Shown one piece after another: positions 2,661 to 19,049 of a stretch of DNA of 19,049 bases (the first letter of the stretch is position 1; every line of letters begins with the position of its first letter). Source of the DNA: an uncultured Peptostreptococcaceae bacterium (GTDB taxonomy: Bacteria; Bacillota; Clostridia; Peptostreptococcales; Anaerovoracaceae); contig CAJOQI010000101.1 of the NCBI GenBank assembly GCA_905236895.1, positions 1-19,049 of the forward strand. The letters are read 5' to 3'. A model generated the notes under the pieces. It had not been told where the DNA came from. It saw only the letters and a list, made by a program, of their open reading frames with translations, and did not search any database. Both the position numbers and the translations under genes were made by a program.

Positions 2661-3107
2661 ATGCTAAAAGACAATCTGATAATGCTTAGAAATATTCGCG
2701 GTCTTTCCCAGGAGGAAGTGGCAGAGGCCGTGGGCATTTCAAGGCAAGCATACGGAAAATGGGAAAGCGGATTAACCATTCCCGATATAGAGAAATGCCA
2801 TCTCCTGGCAAAGCGCTACGGCGTCTCCATTGACAGCCTAATCAAAGAAGAAGCGATTGATGGTCTGGGGCCCATCCCCCCTGCTCCCATAGGAAAAAGT
2901 ATCTGGGGCACCGTCACCGTAAACGACAGAGGCCAGATTGTCATTCCCAAGGGCGCTCGGGATAGATTCGGTATCAAAAGCGGAAGCCAGCTGATTATAT
3001 GCGGCGACGAAATCGGAATCGCCCTTATTCCCATGGACACTTTCGAAGAGGAGCTGGGGAAGATAATGAAGATGGCCTATCGAGATGCCGATAAACAAAG
3101 CGAATAA
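2661..3107 (+). CDS. XRE-family helix-turn-helix regulator fused to a SpoVT/AbrB domain
   Basis: A 148-residue two-part transcription regulator. Residues 1-62 are an XRE/Cro HTH (GLSQEEVAEAVGISRQAYGKWE, followed by LAKRYGVSIDSLI). Residues about 82-125 match a SpoVT/AbrB swapped-hairpin DNA-binding domain (VNDRGQIVIPKGARDRFGIKSG). Both halves normally bind DNA, and AbrB domains also dimerise or tetramerise, so the protein may bridge two sites. The gene starts 24 bp after the permease stop with a clear GGAGG site (about 2650-2654), so it is co-transcribed with the transporter. Autoregulation of the operon is the simplest reading, unproven. The start is fixed by the HTH beginning at residue 1. 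Confidence 0.88.
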   Translation: MLKDNLIMLRNIRGLSQEEVAEAVGISRQAYGKWESGLTIPDIEKCHLLAKRYGVSIDSLIKEEAIDGLGPIPPAPIGKSIWGTVTVNDRGQIVIPKGARDRFGIKSGSQLIICGDEIGIALIPMDTFEEELGKIMKMAYRDADKQSE

Positions 3108-3308: not shown

Positions 3309-4907
3309 ATGTTAAAAAGAGTTGGATCACTGGCTTTAGCCATACTGCTTATCGGCGTATTTGTTTTCAGTGCTTTTGCTACTGAAGTTAGTGCCGATTC
3401 AGTCACGGGTCTTGTTAAGGAGAATGGCAAATGGATCTTCGTTAGAAACGGAAAATTCGACTCCTCCTTCACGGGAATGGTTCAATGCCCCGCCAACGGC
3501 AAATGGTTCTATGTTAAGAACGGAGTTTTTGATAAGACATTTACAGGCATAGCAAAATCCGTTGCCAACGGCAAGTGGTACTATATCAACAAAGGACAAT
3601 ACGATAAGAGCTTTACCGGTCTTATTCAGCAAGGATCCAAATGGTATGCCGTAAAGAACGGCGCCTTTGCTTCCACTTTCACAGGCGTTGCCAAGAACCA
3701 CGCCAACGGCAAATGGTATTATGTTAAAAACGGCGTATACGACAAAAACTATACCGGTCTTGCCAAGTCCATAACCAACGGCAGATGGTTCTATGTATAC
3801 AGAGGAAAACTCAACTGGGATTATACCGGTTTCTGCGAATACAAGGGCAATTGGTTCTATGTAATCAAGGGCGAAATGTGCAGCAATTACACCGGCTTCG
3901 TAAAGAGCAACGGCGTAAGCTATGCAGTAGTTAACGGTAAGGTAAACGACAGCTATATTGGCCTTATGAAGGATACCAAGGGCAAGCTCTATTATGTATC
4001 CGGCGGTGCTTATGACAGAGATTTCACCGGTGTTGCCAAGTATTCCGAAGACGGTAAACTCTATTATGTTGAAAACGGTAAAGCCCAGACTGACTTCTCC
4101 GGAACAAAGACAATCAGTGGCAAAACCTATAAGGTTACCAATGGTGTAGCAAAGCTTATGGACTTCCTTAAGGTTACGAATTATTCCGTAACAAAGGCCT
4201 CCGACGGAACAACGTCCGTCGATGTAACCTTTAAGAATATTTCCGGAGACTCCATGGGATGCCCCACTGTCAATATCCTTCTCTACGATAAGAACAAGAA
4301 GGAAATCGGCAGCGAAAAGCTTCAGGCTATGATTACCCTTGTTCCCGGACAGGCTATAACCATTACAAAGGACATTACCGATCGAGTATCTGACGGAGCT
4401 TGCTACTTCTCCGTAGAAAAGAATGGTTGGGCTGAAAAGGCAAGCACAATAAGATTCAGTGTTGGCTCTGCTCCTTCATATGTGGCTCTAACAAAGAGCA
4501 TGAGCAAAACCGTAGAGGCTGCCACCAAGTCGGTATCTCTTTCCAGAGATACATCCGTATCCTTCGGTGTAAACCCCAAGGTTAAGCTGAGCAACCTCAC
4601 TCTTAAGACAAATGGTAAGTATCTGGAAACCAGCCTCAATGTAACCAACAATACAGGCAAAACAATTACGAATTTCTATATCTATGCCGCAATGTTGGAT
4701 GCAAACGGCAACGTAATAGATTGGTCCAGATTCCCATACGGAGGCACAACCATCAAGGCAGGAGCTACCGCTACCATTAGGACCAATCCTCAAAAGAAGG
4801 AAAGCCAGATAGCCTACTTCAACGTAAGCTACTATAAATACACAATCGGCAGCACCACTTACGAAGGTTATCTCCCCGTAGTTACAAAGGCTGCCAAGAA
4901 ACAGTAA
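3309..4907 (+). CDS. Secreted protein with about eleven aromatic/glycine repeats and two C-terminal beta-domains
   Basis: 532 residues. Residues 1-24 are a signal peptide (Lys-Arg start, hydrophobic core, AFA cleavage site), so the protein is exported. Residues about 31-283 hold eleven degenerate repeats of 22-24 residues with the pattern N-G-K-W-Y-Y-V-K-N-G-x-Y-D-x-x-F-T-G. They resemble cell-wall- or choline-binding beta-hairpin repeats, but I cannot assign them to a named family. Two beta-rich domains follow (about 285-385 and 420-525). Each has a VDVTFKN- or TSLNVTNNTG-like strand and resembles FxLYD/DUF5011-like extracellular domains. There is no LPxTG motif or C-terminal membrane helix, so the repeats probably mediate surface attachment. 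hslO follows after 17 bp without a terminator. The function is unknown; adhesion or envelope binding is inference. Confidence 0.8.
   Translation: MLKRVGSLALAILLIGVFVFSAFATEVSADSVTGLVKENGKWIFVRNGKFDSSFTGMVQCPANGKWFYVKNGVFDKTFTGIAKSVANGKWYYINKGQYDKSFTGLIQQGSKWYAVKNGAFASTFTGVAKNHANGKWYYVKNGVYDKNYTGLAKSITNGRWFYVYRGKLNWDYTGFCEYKGNWFYVIKGEMCSNYTGFVKSNGVSYAVVNGKVNDSYIGLMKDTKGKLYYVSGGAYDRDFTGVAKYSEDGKLYYVENGKAQTDFSGTKTISGKTYKVTNGVAKLMDFLKVTNYSVTKASDGTTSVDVTFKNISGDSMGCPTVNILLYDKNKKEIGSEKLQAMITLVPGQAITITKDITDRVSDGACYFSVEKNGWAEKASTIRFSVGSAPSYVALTKSMSKTVEAATKSVSLSRDTSVSFGVNPKVKLSNLTLKTNGKYLETSLNVTNNTGKTITNFYIYAAMLDANGNVIDWSRFPYGGTTIKAGATATIRTNPQKKESQIAYFNVSYYKYTIGSTTYEGYLPVVTKAAKKQ
3399..4157 (+). repeat. 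Coding repeat array (about 11 units of 66-72 bp)
   Basis: This is the DNA behind the aromatic/glycine repeats. AACGGCAAATGG-type cores recur at about 70-bp spacing (for example near 3495, 3568 and 3706). Units 1-5 are most alike and units 8-11 have drifted (loss of Trp, less regular length), suggesting older duplications at the 3' end. Confidence 0.7.
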
Positions 4908-5847: not shown

Positions 5848-7206
5848 CTACAGATTCTTAATGGTGCCAATGAACACGGGAATTCCCAGCTTCAGGTCCA
5901 CAATCATATATATAAAGGGTCTGTCCAGATATACCTCTTCAGGCTTATCTTCGAATTCTATGGCCGTTTCTTCAACCATTTCCACTATGGTGGCGGCGCC
6001 GGCCTTTGTTCCCTTCTCATCCACTTCTATATATGTGTCGTGAAAGATATTTCCAATATAGATATTTCCGTTGGATGATGTGCCCAGTTTGCTAAAGTCC
6101 GCATTGTCGCTATCAAATGGGGTTTCCACTCCCAACTTCTTAAAGGCCCCAACCAAGGACAGAGAGCTTTCTTCGCTGAATTTGGGGATGGAATAGTTTA
6201 CCCTCTTGTATGATGGATTCTTAATCATATTTTGAAGTGCCTCACCGTCCATGGACTCAATATATTCATCCACCGTTACTCCTTCCTTGGGAAGAAGGGC
6301 GGCAAAACCGTATTCCCAGCCATAATAGTATTTAATGAAACCCTTTGCTTTTTCGTCTTCCAGGTAATCCCCTTCTTCGTCGTACATGAAGGAGATGCCT
6401 TCTGTATCGCCATTTTCTCCGTGGAAGACTCCCTCATGAACCTGGTATTCTCCAAAGGGCGAAACCCAATTTCCTTCAAAGGATAGGGCGTTAATCAGAT
6501 ACATAACAGCTTCATCGGGAAGTTCCTTAAGCATATCCTTAATCATGCCTGCTGTATTGTCTTCAATCCACTTATTGATCTGCTGTCTGGTTTCTTCGTT
6601 AAACCGGGTCTTCACTATTCCCGCATCATAATAGGTTCCGTTGGTTTTAAGAAAATCCTTCTCTATTTGGAGGCTTTCGTCATCCTTGAACCAAATGGAA
6701 TTGGCAATATGGAGTTCCCCCTGGGTGCCCCCTTCTTTTTCAAGCCATTCCTTCTTGGTAGCCATCTTATTAAGATAGGCCCTCAGGAAGCGATTCAAAT
6801 CATCCTGCTTCTCATCCCAGATATCTCCCACACCTGTAGAGCTGGTTCCGCAGGTGGTCACTCCTGCCTCTCCCTCCGTCAAAGCGTCCAAAAGCTGATA
6901 CTGACTCTCTCCCTTTGCTCCATTGGTAGTCATGGCAAGAGCATAGATTACGGAGAGGGGGGAAATCAAAACATTGTCCTCGCTATTGCAGGCTTTAATG
7001 AGGGATGCGGAGAATTTGGCAAGATACCGGCTACCCTGCCCATCCAAGTCCTTGGTCATCTCTTCCTGAGACATGCTTATATCCACATCTATATCCTTCA
7101 TCAAATCCCCTTCAAGAGAGGCCTGATTTCCGCTATTTCCGGCGCTGCAGCTCCAAAAGGAGAATATCATTATTCCTATTAAAAGTATGGTGCTTAGCTT
7201 TCTCAT
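5848..7206 (-). CDS. Serpin-family protease inhibitor, probable lipoprotein
   Basis: 452 residues: an exported leader plus a full serpin fold. Residues 1-20 (MRKLSTILLIGIMIFSFWSC) form a signal peptide ending in a lipobox-like Cys20, so the protein is probably lipid-anchored outside the cell. Serpin marks are LISPLSVIYALAMTTNGAKG, LHIANSIWFKDD, INKWIEDNTAGMIKDML, LINALSFEGNWVSPF and the C-terminal RPFIYMIVD...GIPVFIGTI. The hinge EKGTKAGAAT (from residue 397) keeps small residues at the P15-P9 positions, as inhibitory serpins require. The ATG lies 8 bp after AGGAGG. The gene converges on hslO and is monocistronic. Bacterial serpins typically trap host or competitor serine proteases by suicide inhibition; the target is unknown. 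Confidence 0.94.
   Translation of the reverse strand: MRKLSTILLIGIMIFSFWSCSAGNSGNQASLEGDLMKDIDVDISMSQEEMTKDLDGQGSRYLAKFSASLIKACNSEDNVLISPLSVIYALAMTTNGAKGESQYQLLDALTEGEAGVTTCGTSSTGVGDIWDEKQDDLNRFLRAYLNKMATKKEWLEKEGGTQGELHIANSIWFKDDESLQIEKDFLKTNGTYYDAGIVKTRFNEETRQQINKWIEDNTAGMIKDMLKELPDEAVMYLINALSFEGNWVSPFGEYQVHEGVFHGENGDTEGISFMYDEEGDYLEDEKAKGFIKYYYGWEYGFAALLPKEGVTVDEYIESMDGEALQNMIKNPSYKRVNYSIPKFSEESSLSLVGAFKKLGVETPFDSDNADFSKLGTSSNGNIYIGNIFHDTYIEVDEKGTKAGAATIVEMVEETAIEFEDKPEEVYLDRPFIYMIVDLKLGIPVFIGTIKNL
5914..6018 (-). other. Reactive-centre loop of the serpin
   Basis: Residues 397-431, from the hinge Glu (P17) to the RPF strand. Aligning the hinge to alpha-1-antitrypsin by eye puts P1-P1' at about Glu413-Thr414, within IVEMVEETAIEF. 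The loop downstream of P1 is about four residues longer than in antitrypsin, so P1 may be off by a few residues. Confidence 0.6.
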
Positions 7207-11575: not shown

Positions 11576-11628
11576 ACAAGTATGCTTTCTTATATTTAAT
11601 GGCATCTATTCAGATGCGGGAGATTATA

Positions 11629-12708
11629 ATGGATCAAATTATTCTTGTTGTGGACGACGATGTAACCAGTCTTAAACTGGCCACGGGTATTTTGGACAAA
11701 GAATATCGTGTCGCCGCCGCCACCAGCGGTCCTATGACCTTTAAGTATCTTGAAAAGAACAGACCCAATCTTATTTTACTTGATATTAATATGCCTGATA
11801 TGAACGGCTTTGAGGTGATGGATAAGCTTCAGGAGAATCCTGACTATGCCAAGATTCCCGTAATCTTCCTAACCGCCTCCCAGGGGCCTCAGATTGAAGC
11901 CGAATGTCTTCAGGCCGGGGGTGTTGATTTTGTCAGCAAGCCCTATGTCCCCATGGTTCTTAAAAGCAGGGTTCAGCGAATATTGGAACTCTACGAATAC
12001 AGAGACCAACTGGAATCCATTAACGAGGAAGAAACCCGCAAGTCCCTTGAAAAAAGCATGAGAATCAGCGGCATTCAGGATGCGGTTATTATCGGCATGG
12101 CCAACCTCATAGAGGAAAGAGACAATAATACGGGCTATCACGTAAAAAACACCCAGGTCTATGTAAAGATGATTTGCGAGGCATTGCACGACAGAGGCCT
12201 TTATACGGATTTGCTCACTCCTCGCTTCCAGGACATGCTTATTAAATCCGCCCCTCTTCATGACGTGGGCAAGATCAAAATAACCGACCTTATCCTACAG
12301 AAGCCGGGCAAGCTCAGCACCGAAGAATATAAAATCATTCAGAACCATACCCGCTATGGTGCCGATATTATAGATAATATCCTTGGCGGAGTCGAAGACC
12401 CCGATTATCTGGAGGTTGCAAGAGATGTGGCCCTCTACCACCACGAAAGATGGGATGGAAACGGCTATCCCGAAGGCCTTAGGGGCGAAGAGATTCCCCT
12501 TGGTGCTCGTATCATGGCTCTTGCCGATGTCTTTGATGCTCTCTATGCCGACAGAGTCTATAGAGCGGGCATCAGGCCCTTGGAAAAGGTTCTTTCAATA
12601 ATGGAAGACTCCGCAGGCACCCAGTTCGACCCAATTCTTATGGAAGTTTTCCTAAGTCTAAAAGATCAGTTACAGTCCTATGTTGAGAAAGAGGATGCCT
12701 ATGAATAG
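11629..12708 (+). CDS. Response regulator with HD-GYP output domain (probable cyclic-di-GMP phosphodiesterase)
   Basis: 359 residues. The receiver domain (1-122) has the acidic pocket Asp9-Asp11, phospho-acceptor Asp52 (LILLDINMPDMNG), Thr82 and Lys104 (SKP). A short helical linker leads to an HD-GYP domain (about 150-350) with the metal ligands His211-Asp212 (HDVGK), His240, HHERWDGNGYP (271-281) and RIMALADVFDAL. All catalytic signature residues are present, so it should hydrolyse cyclic-di-GMP when phosphorylated. The ATG at 11629 is chosen because GGGAG lies 6 bp upstream and the receiver starts there; the ATG at 11599 adds ten residues and has no ribosome site. It overlaps the next kinase gene by 8 bp (ATGAATAG), first in a three-gene signalling operon. 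Confidence 0.94.
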   Translation: MDQIILVVDDDVTSLKLATGILDKEYRVAAATSGPMTFKYLEKNRPNLILLDINMPDMNGFEVMDKLQENPDYAKIPVIFLTASQGPQIEAECLQAGGVDFVSKPYVPMVLKSRVQRILELYEYRDQLESINEEETRKSLEKSMRISGIQDAVIIGMANLIEERDNNTGYHVKNTQVYVKMICEALHDRGLYTDLLTPRFQDMLIKSAPLHDVGKIKITDLILQKPGKLSTEEYKIIQNHTRYGADIIDNILGGVEDPDYLEVARDVALYHHERWDGNGYPEGLRGEEIPLGARIMALADVFDALYADRVYRAGIRPLEKVLSIMEDSAGTQFDPILMEVFLSLKDQLQSYVEKEDAYE

Positions 12709-15565
12709 TCATCTTGAAAGCAGACAACGTAGAAGAGAATTGGTAATCACCGTATCCTACTCTTTCTTCTCCGTTTTCATGATTATAGTTAGCGCCATCC
12801 AAAATTGGCCTATCTTCTATATTCCATTGATTGCCGGAGAAATAGCTTTGGTATGGTGGAACTATATCAAACAGCTTCAAAATTACTCTTTCCGTGCATT
12901 CCTGGTCTCCTTCATGACCTCCCTCAATGTATTTCTCTACGGAATTCAGGGAGAGAATTTTAATGTGCTTATTCCAACCCTCTGCGTGGAATTCGTCCTT
13001 CTTTCCCTTTACGAAATAACCAGAATCATGGACATTGCCATATTCAAGAATGCCCTTCTTTTAGCCTATCACTTTTTCATCAAGCACTCCTTCATCATTC
13101 CGGACGATACAACCCAGAAAAACAGAATGCTCCTGCAGATCGTTTCCCTGGTAATATTGACCATCCTTTGTCTCTATAGAATTCGTCACCACGTTCAGGA
13201 AGAGACGGATGCCATAATGCTTGAGAATCAGGTTCACAGGGAGCAAAAGATAAAGGACGACTTTATGGCAAATACCTCCCACGAACTCCGTACTCCCGTT
13301 AATACAATCGCAGGCATGTGCGAGATTCTTCTTCAAAAGAGTCTCCCCGACGACATTCACCGAGGGGTTCTGGACATTCAGATGACCAGCACGGAGCTTC
13401 AAAACATCGTTACGGATATTATGGACTATGCGGCTCTTGATTCGGGAAAGCTGGAGCTCTCCCCTCGCCCCTATAACATCACTTCCACCCTTAACGATGT
13501 TATGAATAGAACCGTATTCGATATGAAGGACAAGAATCTTGAACTGATTTTCGACTGTGATCCCAATATCCCATGCCTTCTGGAGGGAGACGAACTTCAG
13601 CTCAGAAGAGTTCTCAACAATCTGGTAAGCAACGCGATTAAATTCACCAACGAAGGCGGTGTAATAGTAAAGGTCAGCTATCGTCCCGAGGACTACGGAA
13701 TCAATCTTATTATCTCCGTAAAGGATACGGGAAGCGGACTTAGTCTGGAAGAACAGGATCAGATAACCAGAGGCTTCTACCAGACTGACAGCGACAGAAA
13801 CCGCAGAAATTCCGGAATCGGTCTTGGTCTTCCTATCTCCACAGAGTTGATTAAGAAGATGGACGGGTTCCTTACCATCAAATCTCAGGTTGGAGAAGGA
13901 AGCGAATTCTCCTTCGCAATACCTCAGAAGGTGCTTAACGACCAGCCCTGCATTTCCATAAGCCACCCGGGACAGATTAAGTTGGTTTGGTATTATAACC
14001 CACCCCTTACGGTTTCCTCCATCAGAGAGGCCTTTATGGAGCAGGTCGATCACTTCTCCGATTATTTCGGAATCTTTGCTCAGCGTGCCACCTCCCTGGA
14101 GGAATGTAAGAGACGTATTAGCCAGGGTCAGGGCGTTCACCTGATCATAGGTCAGCACGAATATATGGCGAATAAGCAATTCTTTGATGAACTGTCAAAG
14201 ACCGTTCCCGTCATTCTCATAGCAAAGAGAAACGAGGCCTTAAACCCCGCACCTCACATCCACGTTCTCTATACCCCTTACAACGCTTTGATGTTGGCGG
14301 AAATACTGAATGGAAGAGAGCAGGCCTCCGCAACGAGAAAGAGAGAAAAGAAAAAATTCATAGCTCCTACGGCAAAGATTCTGGTTGTGGACGACAATCT
14401 GATGAATCTGAAGGTTGTGGAAGGCTTGCTGCGTAAATACAGAGTGCGACTTGTGGCGGCATACTCCGGCGAAGACGCTCTAAACATTGTGGACTCCAAG
14501 GACTTCGATCTGGTATTCATGGATCATATGATGCCGGGAATGGACGGCGTGGAATGCTTCCACCTTATCAGAGCCAAGGAGGATCCATACTTTGCTCACG
14601 TTCCAATCGTAGCTCTTACGGCCAACGCAATTACCGGATCCAGGGAGATGTTCCTGGCAGAGGGCTTTAACGAATTCGTGGCGAAGCCAATCGACACCAC
14701 CCATCTTGATGATGTGCTTAGGAGATTTATCCCCTTCGAGAAGCAGATCTATGACGACGACAGAGCCGGTGCAACCAAGGAAGAAATCGCCAAGGCTGCT
14801 CAGGAAATCAATTACGATAATAAGACCGAGGAAAGCTCCAAGGGAGCTGCTCCGGAAACCACCTCCCCTGCAGCAACGGAAACTCAGGAGGTTAACGCTC
14901 CTACCCCATCCGAGGAGGGAGATCCCTTCGATAAGCTTCAGGGGATCGACAAGGACACCGCCCTTATGTACTGCGGAGACTTGGGGGACTTTAAGGAGCT
15001 AGCTCAGATTTACTGCGAGAATGGTAAGGATTATCTGATGGATCTTCAGACTTCCTTCGATTCAATGGACCTTAAGCAATACTCCATCATTTCCCATACG
15101 GTAAAGAGCACATCCAAGACACTGGGTGCCCTTCACCTTTCAGATCTGGCCTTTGCTCAGGAAATGGCAGCAAAGGAGGAGCGTCAGGATGATGTAAAAG
15201 CTCAGCATGAAGAATTCAAGGATGAATACTCCAAAGTCCTTAAAATGCTGGGTGAGTTTGTGGGACTGGAAACCCCTGCGGAAGAAGGCGAATCAACAAA
15301 GTCCGAAGAGGACAGGGCTCCTTCCCCGGGGGTTAATCTGGACTTCAGCAAAGATATCGGAGATTGGATGGCCATCAAGGAAAAACTTCTGGAATGCCTC
15401 GAGGCCTATGAGACCGGTACTTTTGATGACAATATTAAGGAATTAAAGGGCAGAACCCTTAACGGCAAGCCCCTGGATGAGTTACTTGCGGGAGTTATTA
15501 AGAAGGCCGCCGGTTTCGACTTTGAAGGTGCTATTGCAGAACTTAAAGAGATTGGAGGGAAATAG
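12701..15565 (+). CDS. Membrane hybrid histidine kinase with receiver and HPt domains
   Basis: 954 residues. Residues 13-165 contain about six membrane helices with no large outside loop. The DHp domain has His194 (NTSHELRTP), followed by HATPase motifs N311 (NLVSNAIKFT), DTGSGL (342-347) and GIGLGL (372-377). Residues about 425-537 look like a degenerate receiver without the phospho-Asp. A true receiver (558-676) has Asp608 (FMDHMMPGMDG) and Lys662. After an acidic Pro/Thr-rich linker comes an HPt domain (about 742-852, His799 in SHTVKSTSKTLGA), then a further 75-residue helical tail. It can therefore run His-Asp-His relay alone. The ATG at 12701 (six bases after AAAGAGG) is preferred over ATGs at 12680 and 12695. 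It overlaps the HD-GYP gene by 8 bp. Confidence 0.94.
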   Translation: MNSHLESRQRRRELVITVSYSFFSVFMIIVSAIQNWPIFYIPLIAGEIALVWWNYIKQLQNYSFRAFLVSFMTSLNVFLYGIQGENFNVLIPTLCVEFVLLSLYEITRIMDIAIFKNALLLAYHFFIKHSFIIPDDTTQKNRMLLQIVSLVILTILCLYRIRHHVQEETDAIMLENQVHREQKIKDDFMANTSHELRTPVNTIAGMCEILLQKSLPDDIHRGVLDIQMTSTELQNIVTDIMDYAALDSGKLELSPRPYNITSTLNDVMNRTVFDMKDKNLELIFDCDPNIPCLLEGDELQLRRVLNNLVSNAIKFTNEGGVIVKVSYRPEDYGINLIISVKDTGSGLSLEEQDQITRGFYQTDSDRNRRNSGIGLGLPISTELIKKMDGFLTIKSQVGEGSEFSFAIPQKVLNDQPCISISHPGQIKLVWYYNPPLTVSSIREAFMEQVDHFSDYFGIFAQRATSLEECKRRISQGQGVHLIIGQHEYMANKQFFDELSKTVPVILIAKRNEALNPAPHIHVLYTPYNALMLAEILNGREQASATRKREKKKFIAPTAKILVVDDNLMNLKVVEGLLRKYRVRLVAAYSGEDALNIVDSKDFDLVFMDHMMPGMDGVECFHLIRAKEDPYFAHVPIVALTANAITGSREMFLAEGFNEFVAKPIDTTHLDDVLRRFIPFEKQIYDDDRAGATKEEIAKAAQEINYDNKTEESSKGAAPETTSPAATETQEVNAPTPSEEGDPFDKLQGIDKDTALMYCGDLGDFKELAQIYCENGKDYLMDLQTSFDSMDLKQYSIISHTVKSTSKTLGALHLSDLAFAQEMAAKEERQDDVKAQHEEFKDEYSKVLKMLGEFVGLETPAEEGESTKSEEDRAPSPGVNLDFSKDIGDWMAIKEKLLECLEAYETGTFDDNIKELKGRTLNGKPLDELLAGVIKKAAGFDFEGAIAELKEIGGK

Positions 15566-15567
15566 TC

Positions 15568-18234
15568 ATGTTAAAGAAAATAAAAGAAATGACATATTCC
15601 GATAAGCGTTCCCTCCAAGAGAGAAAATTCATTCTTGCGGGAATCATAGGATGCCTGTCCATTCTTGCCGTTCTGTTAAGCGTAATCACAACCAACCAGA
15701 GCGTAATATTTGCGGTCATCCTTTCCCTGACCTTTATCGTCTTCCTCGGAATAATTTCCTTCACCATAAGGACGAAGCGATTTAATCTGGGAGGATCGCT
15801 AATAATACTTATAAGCAATCTGATGATCTTGCCTATAGGCTATCTATTGGGCGGCGGTGTATTCAGCGGCGCTCCCCTTTGGTTCGTCGTAGGCATGGTA
15901 TTCGTCTTCGTTCTCTTCAGAGGAAAGCTCTTCTGGATGTATTTCATCCTGACCTTCCTTTCCTTTGGGGTATCCTTCTATATCGGAGCAACCCATCCTG
16001 AATGGGTAGTTTCCCTGGATGAAGGATATAGCATCCATACAGACGCATTTATAGCGGCCATATCCGTATCCGTACTCTGCGGATTACTGTTTAAGTTCCA
16101 AAGCATGGTTTTGGAACACGAGCTCAAGAAAGCGGAGGATCAAAAGATCGAGATAGAGAGGCTGAACGAAGCCCAGAGTTCCTTCTTCTCCTCCATGAGC
16201 CACGAGATAAGAACTCCAATCAACACCATCATCGGTCTTAACGAAATGACCATGAGAGAGCCCCAACTTCCCAACGAGATTCTGGAAAACACCCTTAATA
16301 TTCAGAACGCCAGTAAGATGCTTCTCTCCCTCATTAACGATATTCTGGACATGTCCAAGATTCAGTCCGGAAATATGCAGATTGTTCCCGCAGCCTATGA
16401 AACCAGCCACCTCCTAAGCGAGATTACCAATCTCCACTGGAACAGGGCTTCGGAAAAGAATCTCCGTTTTGAGATTCAGATAGGAGAAGACATCCCCTCC
16501 ACCCTTTACGGAGACGACACAAGAATCAAACAGATAATCACCAACCTTCTCACCAACGCCATCAAATATACGGAGGAAGGTTATGTAATCATGCGTTTCG
16601 GCGGCGAACGGGTCAACGACAATAAATATCTCCTTCAGGTGGAAATCGAAGACAGCGGCATTGGAATCAGAAAAGAAAACATCCAATACCTCTTCGATAC
16701 CTTCCGCCGTATCGAAGGAAGCGATACCAAGAATATCGAGGGTACCGGCCTTGGTCTCTCCATCTCCAAGCAACTTGTGGATATGATGGACGGAAAGATT
16801 TCCGTAAACAGCATCTATACCAAGGGTTCCACCTTCCGTGTGGAGATTCCTCAGGAAATCGTAAACAGCAAGGAGATGGAATATCGCACTCCCGGTATCG
16901 TTGCCAAGGTGCAGCCTGACTATCATCAGTCCTTCGAGGCACCAAAGGCTACGGTTCTTATCGTTGACGATAACGATATGAACAGAATCGTTTGCAGAAA
17001 GCTTCTCCGCTCCACCAGAGTACAGGTGGATCTGGCTGAATCCGGAAGAGAGTGCTTGGAAAAGACCAGAGAAAAGCACTATGACGCCATCTTCATGGAT
17101 CACGAGATGCCTCAGATGGACGGAATAGAGGCTCTGAGAAGACTTCGTCAGCAGCCTGACGGATTGTGCAGGAATACACCTGTTGTAGCCCTTACAGCCA
17201 ATGCGGGAAGCGATAAGGAAGCCTTCTATCAGGAACAGGGCTTCTCCGCCTATATATCAAAGCCCATTCAGTCCAGCCGCCTGGAAGCCATACTCCTGGC
17301 CTGCCTGCCGGAGGATTTGATCGAGCAGAACTTCACCAAGAACGAGGAAGAGACTCTTAATATACTCAATATGGTTCAGCAGAAGCCATTTATCATTACC
17401 ACCGATTCCATTGCTGATTTGACGGAAGAAATAATCAGCAAATACGAAATCATGGTAATGCCCTATTATATCCAGACGGATCAGGGTCGCTTCAGGGACA
17501 AGGAAGAAATAGACGCCACCAATCTCCAGCAATATATTCTGAACGGAGATCACGACGTTCACTCCATGCCCGCTTCCGTAGAGGAATACGAGAAGTTCTT
17601 CGGAACCGCACTGTCCAAGGCCAGAAAGGTTATCCACCTCTCTGCCATGAAGAATATAAGCAGAGCCTATGACAATGCTGTTCTTGCTGCAGAAAGCTTT
17701 GGTAATGTTCAGGTAGTTGATTCGGGAATGCTTTCCAGCGGAATCGCCCTTATGGTTATCAGAGCATCCGAGCTGCTCCAGAGAGGAATCAGAACCACCG
17801 AGGTTCTTCAGGATCTGGAAAGATACCGCAAGAAGATCAGCATAAATTACCTGGTACCTGCCATTGACCAAACCAATAGCAAATACCATCTGCCAATCTT
17901 CTATCGCATGATCATAAACAGCTTCAACCTGGAGCCCAGCTTTACGATTAAGCGAGGAAAGCTTGCCATCAACAAGCTTATGATGGGATATGTAAGGACA
18001 ACCTCAGAGCAGTTCATCAAGATCTGCCTCTCCAACCCGCAGAACATCAATACCAAACGTCTCTTCGTAACCTTCTCCGGTTGCTCCAGAGACGATCGTG
18101 AGCATATTCTTCAGGAGATCCAGCGCTATGTTCAGTTTGACGAGATAATCGTAAACAAAGCATCCGCTGCCACATTCATCAACTGCGGTCCCAACTCCTT
18201 CGGATTGGCATACGAAAGAAAGGACAAGAAATAA
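15568..18234 (+). CDS. Membrane hybrid histidine kinase-receiver fused to a DegV (EDD/FakB-like) domain
   Basis: 888 residues in one uninterrupted frame. Six membrane helices (about 20-178) and a coiled coil precede DHp His212 (MSHEIRTPINT). ATPase motifs are NLLTNAIKYT (326-335), EDSGIG (361-366) and GTGLGL (392-397). The receiver (461-580) has Asp467-Asp468, Asp511 (FMDHEMPQMDG) and Lys565. After about 25 linker residues, 606-886 form a complete DegV domain: FIITTDSIADLTEEIISKY, HSMPASVEEY, VIHLSAMKNISRAY, VQVVDSGMLSSGIALMVIRA and NCGPNSFGLAY. DegV/FakB proteins bind a single fatty acid. There is no HPt domain. GGAGGG (15553-15558) precedes the ATG, two bases after the upstream stop. Fatty-acid sensing by the C-terminal domain is inference. 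Confidence 0.93.
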   Translation: MLKKIKEMTYSDKRSLQERKFILAGIIGCLSILAVLLSVITTNQSVIFAVILSLTFIVFLGIISFTIRTKRFNLGGSLIILISNLMILPIGYLLGGGVFSGAPLWFVVGMVFVFVLFRGKLFWMYFILTFLSFGVSFYIGATHPEWVVSLDEGYSIHTDAFIAAISVSVLCGLLFKFQSMVLEHELKKAEDQKIEIERLNEAQSSFFSSMSHEIRTPINTIIGLNEMTMREPQLPNEILENTLNIQNASKMLLSLINDILDMSKIQSGNMQIVPAAYETSHLLSEITNLHWNRASEKNLRFEIQIGEDIPSTLYGDDTRIKQIITNLLTNAIKYTEEGYVIMRFGGERVNDNKYLLQVEIEDSGIGIRKENIQYLFDTFRRIEGSDTKNIEGTGLGLSISKQLVDMMDGKISVNSIYTKGSTFRVEIPQEIVNSKEMEYRTPGIVAKVQPDYHQSFEAPKATVLIVDDNDMNRIVCRKLLRSTRVQVDLAESGRECLEKTREKHYDAIFMDHEMPQMDGIEALRRLRQQPDGLCRNTPVVALTANAGSDKEAFYQEQGFSAYISKPIQSSRLEAILLACLPEDLIEQNFTKNEEETLNILNMVQQKPFIITTDSIADLTEEIISKYEIMVMPYYIQTDQGRFRDKEEIDATNLQQYILNGDHDVHSMPASVEEYEKFFGTALSKARKVIHLSAMKNISRAYDNAVLAAESFGNVQVVDSGMLSSGIALMVIRASELLQRGIRTTEVLQDLERYRKKISINYLVPAIDQTNSKYHLPIFYRMIINSFNLEPSFTIKRGKLAINKLMMGYVRTTSEQFIKICLSNPQNINTKRLFVTFSGCSRDDREHILQEIQRYVQFDEIIVNKASAATFINCGPNSFGLAYERKDKK
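17383..18225 (+). other. DegV domain within the hybrid kinase
   Basis: 281 residues, full length for a stand-alone DegV protein, placed after the receiver. TDSxADL, the SxPAS stretch (equivalent to TSQPS), the xLSxxxISxAY stretch (equivalent to SSGIS), DSxxLSSGxA and the terminal GPxxxGLxY are all recognisable in the right order. No ribosome site or good start codon for a separate protein was seen at the junction. Confidence 0.9.
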
Positions 18235-18316: not shown

Positions 18317-19049
18317 CTAATTGGGAAGGGTGATGGTAACCTTGGTTCCCTCTCCCAAGGTGCTGTCGATTATCATCTCTCCTCCAAGATCCTTTTCCAT
18401 TCTCTCCTGGATTCCTATAAGTTCTCTGTGGGTTTTATCGGTGATCTTATTGATATCGAATCCCACACCGTCATCCTCAACTATGATTTTAACTCCAGCA
18501 GCCAATCTCCTGGTTTGGATTGTAACGGTTCCCGGTCTGTCCAGATCCCTTATGCCGTGCTTTACTGCATTCTCCACAAGAGGTTCAATGGTTAAAGGCG
18601 GAATCTTGAAATCATCCACATCTATATCGTATTTTACATTCAGCTGATCACCAAAACGCATCTTCTCAAGAGCCAAATAACTCTTAATCTGATTGAGCTC
18701 CTGGGAGAAAAGCACCGGCTCCGGATCCTCGATAGTTTCAAGGGTATTCCTCAGATAGTCGGAAACATAGCCAACTGCCTCTTGGGCCTTGCTTGGATCC
18801 ATATCGCAGAGATAATAGATATTGGTCATTACATTATAGATATAATGGGGTTTCATTCTCCCTGCAGCCAGGAGCAAACGGTTCTGAAGATTAATCATAT
18901 CCGCCTCTCTAAGGGCCTCTTCTACCTCTGAATGGTAGCCAATGTATGTGACCATAAGGCCGATTATGAAAGCCGGGAAAACCAGGGCAGTTTCTTTGGA
19001 CGGTGGATCAATTAATGCTGCCAGGACAGTGAGCCCAGGAGGGCACAGA
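18317..19049 (-). CDS. C-terminal part of a LytS-like sensor histidine kinase (5' end outside window)
   Basis: The frame is open to the window edge, so the start and most of the sensor domain are missing; the methionine at 18955 is internal. The visible N-terminal part ends in a membrane helix (ALVFPAFIIGLMVTYIGYH). A His-kinase domain follows with the phospho-acceptor His in RMKPHYIYN (codon 18845-18847), then SQELNQIKSYLALEKMRFGD, the N-box EPLVENAVKHGI, DDGVGFD and GIQERMEKDLGGEM. This is the LytS/YehU/AgrC-like class that phosphorylates LytTR or AraC-type regulators, one of which probably lies near this gene outside the window. It converges on the DegV-kinase gene and need not belong to the same pathway. 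Confidence 0.88.
   Translation of the reverse strand, partial: LCPPGLTVLAALIDPPSKETALVFPAFIIGLMVTYIGYHSEVEEALREADMINLQNRLLLAAGRMKPHYIYNVMTNIYYLCDMDPSKAQEAVGYVSDYLRNTLETIEDPEPVLFSQELNQIKSYLALEKMRFGDQLNVKYDIDVDDFKIPPLTIEPLVENAVKHGIRDLDRPGTVTIQTRRLAAGVKIIVEDDGVGFDINKITDKTHRELIGIQERMEKDLGGEMIIDSTLGEGTKVTITLPN

Follow-up and report, generated by a model that had tools for sequence, protein, structure and literature searches.

What does a DegV domain do at the end of a membrane-bound hybrid histidine kinase of a gut-type Clostridia bacterium? DegV proteins are widespread, and we know of no role for those outside the FakA/FakB pathway. In contrast to the FakB/DegV proteins of PF02645 (such as 2dt8 and 4x9x), the DegV domain considered here is fused to a membrane hybrid kinase. 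An initial annotation of the window (the whole 19,049-nucleotide stretch of DNA that was analysed) described this order of domains in one frame and offered two ideas for it: a bound lipid may modulate the kinase or receiver, or phosphorylation may control fatty-acid loading or hand-over to FakA. Our results suggest that the protein probably belongs to an uncharacterised class of lipid-sensing signal relay, the design of which is common to many related proteins.

Results

The gene runs as a single open frame across 888 codons, and Pfam matches HisKA, HATPase_c, Response_reg and DegV domains in the order described. Its features are as follows.

15568..18234, + strand: hybrid histidine kinase with a C-terminal DegV domain, 888 aa (open frame, Pfam domains)
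15554..15559, + strand: GGAGGG, ribosome-binding-site-like, 8 bases 5' of the ATG (read from the sequence)
15613..16098, + strand: six-helix membrane sensor region, about residues 16-177 (AF2 helices, hydropathy peaks)
16174..16371, + strand: HisKA dimerisation/phosphoacceptor domain, residues 203-268 (Pfam 1.2e-16)
16201-16203, + strand: phosphoacceptor His212 (residue check)
16510..16857, + strand: HATPase_c, residues 315-430 (Pfam 3.7e-25)
16954..17292, + strand: receiver (Response_reg), residues 463-575 (Pfam 6.2e-26)
17098-17100, + strand: receiver Asp511 (residue check)
17335..17376, + strand: flexible linker, residues 590-603 (pLDDT <50 in the full-length AF2 model)
17392..18219, + strand: DegV domain PF02645, residues 609-884 (Pfam 7.3e-31, fold match, alignment)
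17563-17565, + strand: S666, at the FakB2 T61 position (alignment)
17659-17661, + strand: S698, at the FakB2 S93 position (alignment)
17887-17889, + strand: H774, at the FakB2 R170 position (alignment)
17983-17985, + strand: M806, at the FakB2 R202 position (alignment)
18181-18183, + strand: N872, at the FakB2 H266 position (alignment)

The protein is a hybrid histidine kinase: it has a HisKA domain with its His, an HATPase_c domain and a receiver with its Asp. The key kinase and receiver residues are intact, as had been claimed, and all lie in the expected places (His212, Asn330, Asp362, Asp467, Asp511, Thr543 and Lys565). The DegV match is near full length, covering profile positions 3-279 of 280, and the model of this domain (pLDDT 90.9) folds as DegV by structure match, which bears out the initial description of a complete domain. 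The six-helix sensor was likewise recovered, as membrane-length helices at residues 16-42, 46-69, 72-94, 102-116, 120-142 and from 156 onward in the full-length AF2 model; the pTM of that model is 0.53, and its domain contacts are unreliable and were left unused. No Hpt match was found by Pfam in the DegV kinase of the window itself. A membrane sensor common to the genus was considered and rejected: among 60 relatives, residues 1-190 have weak matches in five, at 17-30% identity, and the genus of the window is not represented in these.

The junction between kinase and DegV is genuine. There is no stop or frameshift in the sequence within 17300-17400, the interval where a break had been thought conceivable, and GC3 is 0.587 in the kinase part and 0.585 in the DegV part. 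The Hsp33 gene of the window is matched in 6 of 12 same-genus genomes, with four full-length matches at 67-75% identity and two split matches at 73-74% over the longer piece, so the contig fits its genome; it is also matched, at 41-45% identity, in four of the nine other fusion-bearing genomes of the family. The open frame, even GC3 and Hsp33 matches led us to reject an assembly artefact or mis-binning. Recent transfer finds no support in composition, since the GC content of the cassette (0.467) is that of the remainder of the window (0.463). A DegV match of any kind is absent from all 12 of the other same-genus genomes; hence, the fusion is sporadic within the genus.

Relatives with the fusion are numerous. 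A search with the DegV part of the window protein found 59 proteins, including one almost identical to that of the window, and all have HK, REC and DegV by precomputed domains. A distant member as query gave 121 matches, the best 120 of which comprise 117 kinase-type fusions (three without a HisKA match) and three Dak2-DegV proteins. With a long member there were 401 matches, and 119 of the 120 listed were new and were counted; those listed are mostly ~1130-1175 aa long, and 90 of the 120 have a precomputed Hpt match, some being pieces. Altogether, 283 fusion entries were obtained among the matches listed, P0002 excluded. We therefore reject the idea of a unique oddity, as many separate entries clustered at 90% contain the fusion; it is also present in 10 of 349 same-family genomes, so that the occurrence in relatives on which the initial annotation depended is confirmed. 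The long HK-REC-DegV proteins (P0160 and P0169-P0287) constitute a very large set, most with Hpt, and include Butyrivibrio strains. Seven long members were scanned with Pfam for an Hpt domain behind DegV: it is above cut-off in P0151, P0159, P0160 and P0222, below cut-off in P0183 and P0262 and not found in P0215 (P0183, P0215, P0222 and P0262 come from Butyrivibrio sp. VCD2006, AE2032 and JL13D10). Relatives with titles or names, Ruminococcus sp. YE71 among them, are nearly all Clostridia; L011 is titled Muribaculaceae yet is close to L012, titled Blautia.

The source names of these kinases, where given, are of the DegV/EDD type (e.g., 'DegV family protein'), which is an annotation trap. The view that DegV proteins are normally stand-alone requires qualification: HK-REC-DegV proteins, with or without Hpt behind DegV, are numerous and Dak2-DegV proteins occur too. 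That DegV can form one domain of a multidomain protein is stated in a 2025 paper (PMC12288450). We found no description of a DegV-bearing histidine kinase in literature searches of limited depth, which agrees, within that scope, with the earlier statement that no characterised protein of this order is known.

A quick tree was made from 76 DegV domains (43 of the first 162 fusions, 30 stand-alone and 3 Dak2-DegV). The fusions fall on one side of a branch with an SH-aLRT of 100, so a single fusion event is enough to account for them. Relatives were compared in five pairs, three of which lie within L005-L007 and one of which has a dS of 2.35, and dN/dS was 0.04-0.09 for the DegV part; for the kinase-receiver part the value was 0.03-0.07, with four of the five pairs computable. 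The DegV domain is thus maintained and is not decaying. The sporadic occurrence in the genus, with DegV in 0 of 12 other genomes, would suit a DegV domain that is a vestigial passenger or an assembly artefact, but the many intact, distinct entries, the low dN/dS of the DegV part and the single supported clade make this reading highly improbable.

How does this DegV domain compare with FakB? Many of its best fold matches are long-chain fatty-acid complexes. For the pocket positions we use what we take to be FakB2 numbering (T61, S93, R170, R202 and H266). The letters of 4x9x at 61, 93 and 170 agree with this numbering, and the R202 and H266 columns were located by conservation in stand-alone DegVs. 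In FakB1, a carboxylate network Ser171-His270-Thr62-carboxylate-Ser95 is described, Arg173 and Arg205 are given as completely conserved in FakB, and FakA binding is reported to depend above all on Arg205 and catalysis to require Arg173 (PMC8892158). Arg170 corresponds to FakB1 Arg173 (catalysis), and the window protein has His774 there; Arg202 corresponds to FakB1 Arg205 (FakA docking and membrane contact), and the window protein has Met806. FakB has His266 in the carboxylate network where the window protein has Asn872, a change that, as aligned, breaks part of the known network. FakB and the window protein are alike at the positions that hold the carboxylate (Thr/Ser at 61 and Ser at 93 in FakB), both hydroxyls being retained as serines, S666 and S698. 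Judged by these residues, the window DegV does not count as a working FakB.

The same positions were compared across 281 aligned fusions from the matches listed, made up of a first set of 162 and a second of 119; we left out P0002, whose identity to the DegV query is 100%, as well as two fusions with a DegV match of ≤220 residues. Among these listed matches, R202 is Arg in 1 of 281, the H266 position is Asn in 272 and His in 1, and R170, R202 and H266 occur together in none, versus 26 of 30 stand-alone DegVs of the order and family. R170 is retained, again among the matches listed, in 83/162 of the first set and 4/119 of the second. The T61 position is Ser or Thr in 140/162 and 119/119 of the listed matches, respectively, and the S93 position is Ser or Thr in 99/162 of the first set and Ser in 118/119 of the second, long set. 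In the window's own clade the S93 position is Ser in 23 and Thr in 3 of 26. These counts indicate that the FakA-docking surface is lost throughout, whereas retention of the hydroxyls holds for the window's clade and for the long set and not everywhere; the variation at S93 in the first set suggests that part of the members may have another ligand or none. Because the fusions trace to a single origin on the tree, their 281 rows should not be counted as so many separate losses.

Stand-alone DegVs of the family served as controls. In seven FakA-bearing genomes R170 is present in 7, H266 in 6 and R202 as Arg in 5 (Lys in 2); in eight FakA-free genomes R170 is present in 8 and R202 in 6, and the H266 position is Tyr in 7. 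Absence of FakA alone therefore does not remove R202. Dak2/FakA-like_M-DegV proteins were seen in L110 (G126), L109 (G367, cut by the contig end), G281, G384 and P0166-P0168. Like the fusion, they are longer proteins that end in a DegV domain; unlike it, their front part is of the fatty-acid-kinase type, Dak2 plus FakA-like_M. Six that were aligned have R170 in 6/6 and R202 in 3/6: those of G126, G281 and G384, from the family, are without R202, and P0166-P0168 retain it. From these alignments, loss of R202 appears to accompany fusion to another domain in most cases. H266 is also altered in the FakA-free stand-alones, and the Dak2-DegV L106, with its kinase in cis, has Asn at this position; hence, Asn is no proof of lost phosphorylation. 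The Tyr266 proteins of FakA-free genomes (L052, L091-L095 and L097), which are stand-alone and keep R170, may possibly be a second FakA-independent group of DegVs.

DegV is present in 32 of the 349 genomes of the window's family. The ten family fusions were confirmed by tblastn on fetched loci, and we infer from identical contig coordinates that six of the ten genomes are those of L002-L007. In each of the ten, the kinase fusion is the sole DegV match. A FakA C-domain above cut-off was found in 0 of these 10 genomes, 5 of which are <90% complete; no FakA was found in the window's genome (G000, 78.8% complete), and G172 has a FakA_C match below cut-off at 18.2 bits. Dak2 occurs in two of the ten, in frames of 219 and 223 aa, too short for FakA. 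The other DegV-bearing genomes of the family have a FakA-length match in 8 of 22 and lack FakA in 14 of 22 (Fisher p 0.035 for FakA absence in the fusion genomes versus these, kinship ignored), and some of those without FakA hold a Dak2-DegV protein instead. A wider sample of other family genomes has FakA above cut-off in 2 of 48, which together with the 8 of 22 indicates that FakA is rare in this family anyway; its absence beside the fusion is therefore weak evidence. Among 12 fusion genomes reached via L002-L012 and L017, FakA_C is above cut-off in six (titled three Lachnospiraceae, Blautia, Eubacterium and Muribaculaceae), and these also have non-fused DegV frames. The fusion thus appears to persist without FakA, and mutual exclusion of fusion and FakA is not implied. 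With the docking Arg, the catalytic set and H266 lost, and with FakA not detected in the ten fusion genomes of the family, hand-over to FakA is unlikely, and the idea of phosphorylation-controlled loading and hand-over is disfavoured.

The neighbouring genes are listed here, together with one from a related locus.

12680..15565, + strand: partner hybrid kinase HisKA-HATPase-REC-Hpt, 961 aa (Pfam, Hpt 27.1 bits)
11599..12708, + strand: response regulator REC-HD-GYP, 369 aa (Pfam REC and HD_5)
18317..18955, - strand: convergent LytS-type His_kinase/HATPase protein (Pfam PF06580)
11962-12927 of locus L003, - strand: PAS-GGDEF gene (Pfam)

The stop codon of the partner kinase ends 2 bases before the start of the DegV kinase, and the REC-HD-GYP gene, which carries HDVGK and HHERWDGNGYP motifs, overlaps the partner gene by 29 bases. 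A partner kinase lies directly upstream of the fusion in the window and in 17/17 testable distinct loci (L002-L006, L008-L012, L017, L083-L087 and L108, of which L004 shows the partner's end only; L007, cut by the contig end, is outside this set). In G089, a distant genome, there are three fusions, and every one has a partner kinase of its own. The partner Hpt is at or above the Pfam cut-off in 5/6 other loci scanned, with L012 scoring 23.4 versus 24.6. The REC-HD-GYP gene precedes the pair in 11/15 observable loci (L008 in part only); none was found in L083-L085 by motif and a 150-bit tblastn limit, and in L087 a gene with a GGDEF motif takes its place. Downstream, the LytS-type neighbour is conserved in 7/7 close relatives (L002-L008), and a convergent GGDEF-motif gene lies directly behind the fusion in five of these seven (L003-L007); the latter gene is absent from the window, where the LytS-type gene stands instead. 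GGDEF matches are present in 10/10 family fusion genomes, making c-di-GMP signalling plausible.

Discussion

We see roughly an even chance that the DegV domain is a FakA-independent acyl-binding sensor or gate within a phosphorelay, the ligand being a carboxylate of the fatty-acid type. The pocket would be occupied by lipid from the inner membrane leaflet or cytosol, and occupancy would alter the behaviour of the receiver and kinase. This would change the flow of phosphate from the receiver of the DegV kinase to the Hpt of the adjacent partner kinase, from which phosphate would pass to the REC-HD-GYP regulator and alter c-di-GMP. In the long relatives a single chain has DegV after the receiver and before Hpt, so phosphotransfer from one to the other may be the step on which DegV acts; this and the link to the Hpt of the second kinase favour an acyl-occupancy sensor or gate. 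Lipid modulation of the kinase or receiver seems the better of the two original ideas. A broader reading, held more tentatively, is that the fusions may form a large, unrecognised class of phosphorelays gated by lipid among Clostridia of gut and rumen: a fatty-acid carrier fold would have been captured once by a hybrid kinase and have lost its kinase-partner surface, and DegV, standing in line after the receiver and ahead of Hpt (the latter in cis, or in trans via the paired kinase), would couple intracellular acyl-chain status to c-di-GMP turnover.

The main rival, somewhat unlikely in our judgement, is that DegV is a protein-docking or dimerisation platform with a structural ligand or none, joining the two kinases or positioning the receiver at the partner Hpt. 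The constant pairing with an Hpt kinase would suit such a platform, as would the varied S93 position in many members and the fold relatives that act as regulatory protein partners, since the fold matches include, by PDB title, complexes of DhaR with DhaK and the co-activator DhaQ. DhaQ and DhaR-DhaK act on transcription factors and dihydroxyacetone; in this, these regulators with DhaK-type folds differ from the window protein. Serines at both carboxylate positions in the window protein and in 118 of the 119 listed long relatives speak against a mere platform, and Asn at the H266 position, kept in 272 of the 281 listed fusions, has the look of a selected pocket residue. Domains that follow a receiver are outputs as often as inputs, and DegV follows the receiver like ordinary output domains; receiver phosphorylation might then control the loading, release or delivery of a fatty acid to an enzyme or membrane, and the kinase would regulate lipid traffic. 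This we regard as improbable. FakB proteins are described as exchanging lipid with membranes (PMC8892158), which would fit an output of this kind, but the Arg of FakA docking and membrane contact is replaced in 280 of the 281 fusions listed, no FakA was found in the ten family genomes, and the Hpt that follows DegV in long relatives marks a relay and not a terminal position.

It is also possible, with still less probability, that DegV reads another small hydrophobic or carboxylate ligand (e.g., a short-chain acid or a bile-acid-like or aromatic gut compound) and not a long-chain fatty acid. The change from His to Asn and the variable R170 and S93 positions alter the head-group site, and the titles of several relatives indicate gut samples (Goat_Ileum, Lapin); the many long-chain fatty-acid complexes among the best fold matches argue the other way. 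Phosphorylation of the bound fatty acid by the relay itself, which would then stand in for FakA, is barely credible, given the loss of R170 in many members.

The sensor or gate reading has a parallel in RpfC, which acts through an HD-GYP regulator. Both systems have a REC-HD-GYP regulator next to a hybrid kinase that contains REC and Hpt, which in the window is the partner kinase (12680-15565), and a fatty-acid-type ligand is suspected for the window system. RpfC is described as sensing DSF through a 22-residue N-terminal region, the fatty acid activating the hybrid kinase (PMC5391125), whereas the window system has a separate DegV domain behind the receiver and two paired hybrid kinases. By analogy, it may work somewhat like RpfC/RpfG; we do not claim membership of that system. 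A DegV fold uncoupled from FakA, whose pocket hydroxyls persist in the clade of the window and in the long relatives, makes the idea of DegV as a sensor directly testable. If this is true, Clostridia of gut and rumen would sense fatty acids through a soluble domain that feeds two-component and probably c-di-GMP signalling, in parallel to DSF sensing but by another receptor.

Three other genes of the window may be recorded. A bacterial serpin (PF00079, 5.1e-77; 5848-7206, - strand) adjoins Hsp33, a protein with choline-binding-type repeats (PF21540) is encoded at 3309-4907 (+ strand), and HTH_3 and MazE-like domains are joined in one 148-aa protein (2661-3107, + strand) 3' of an ABC transporter gene.
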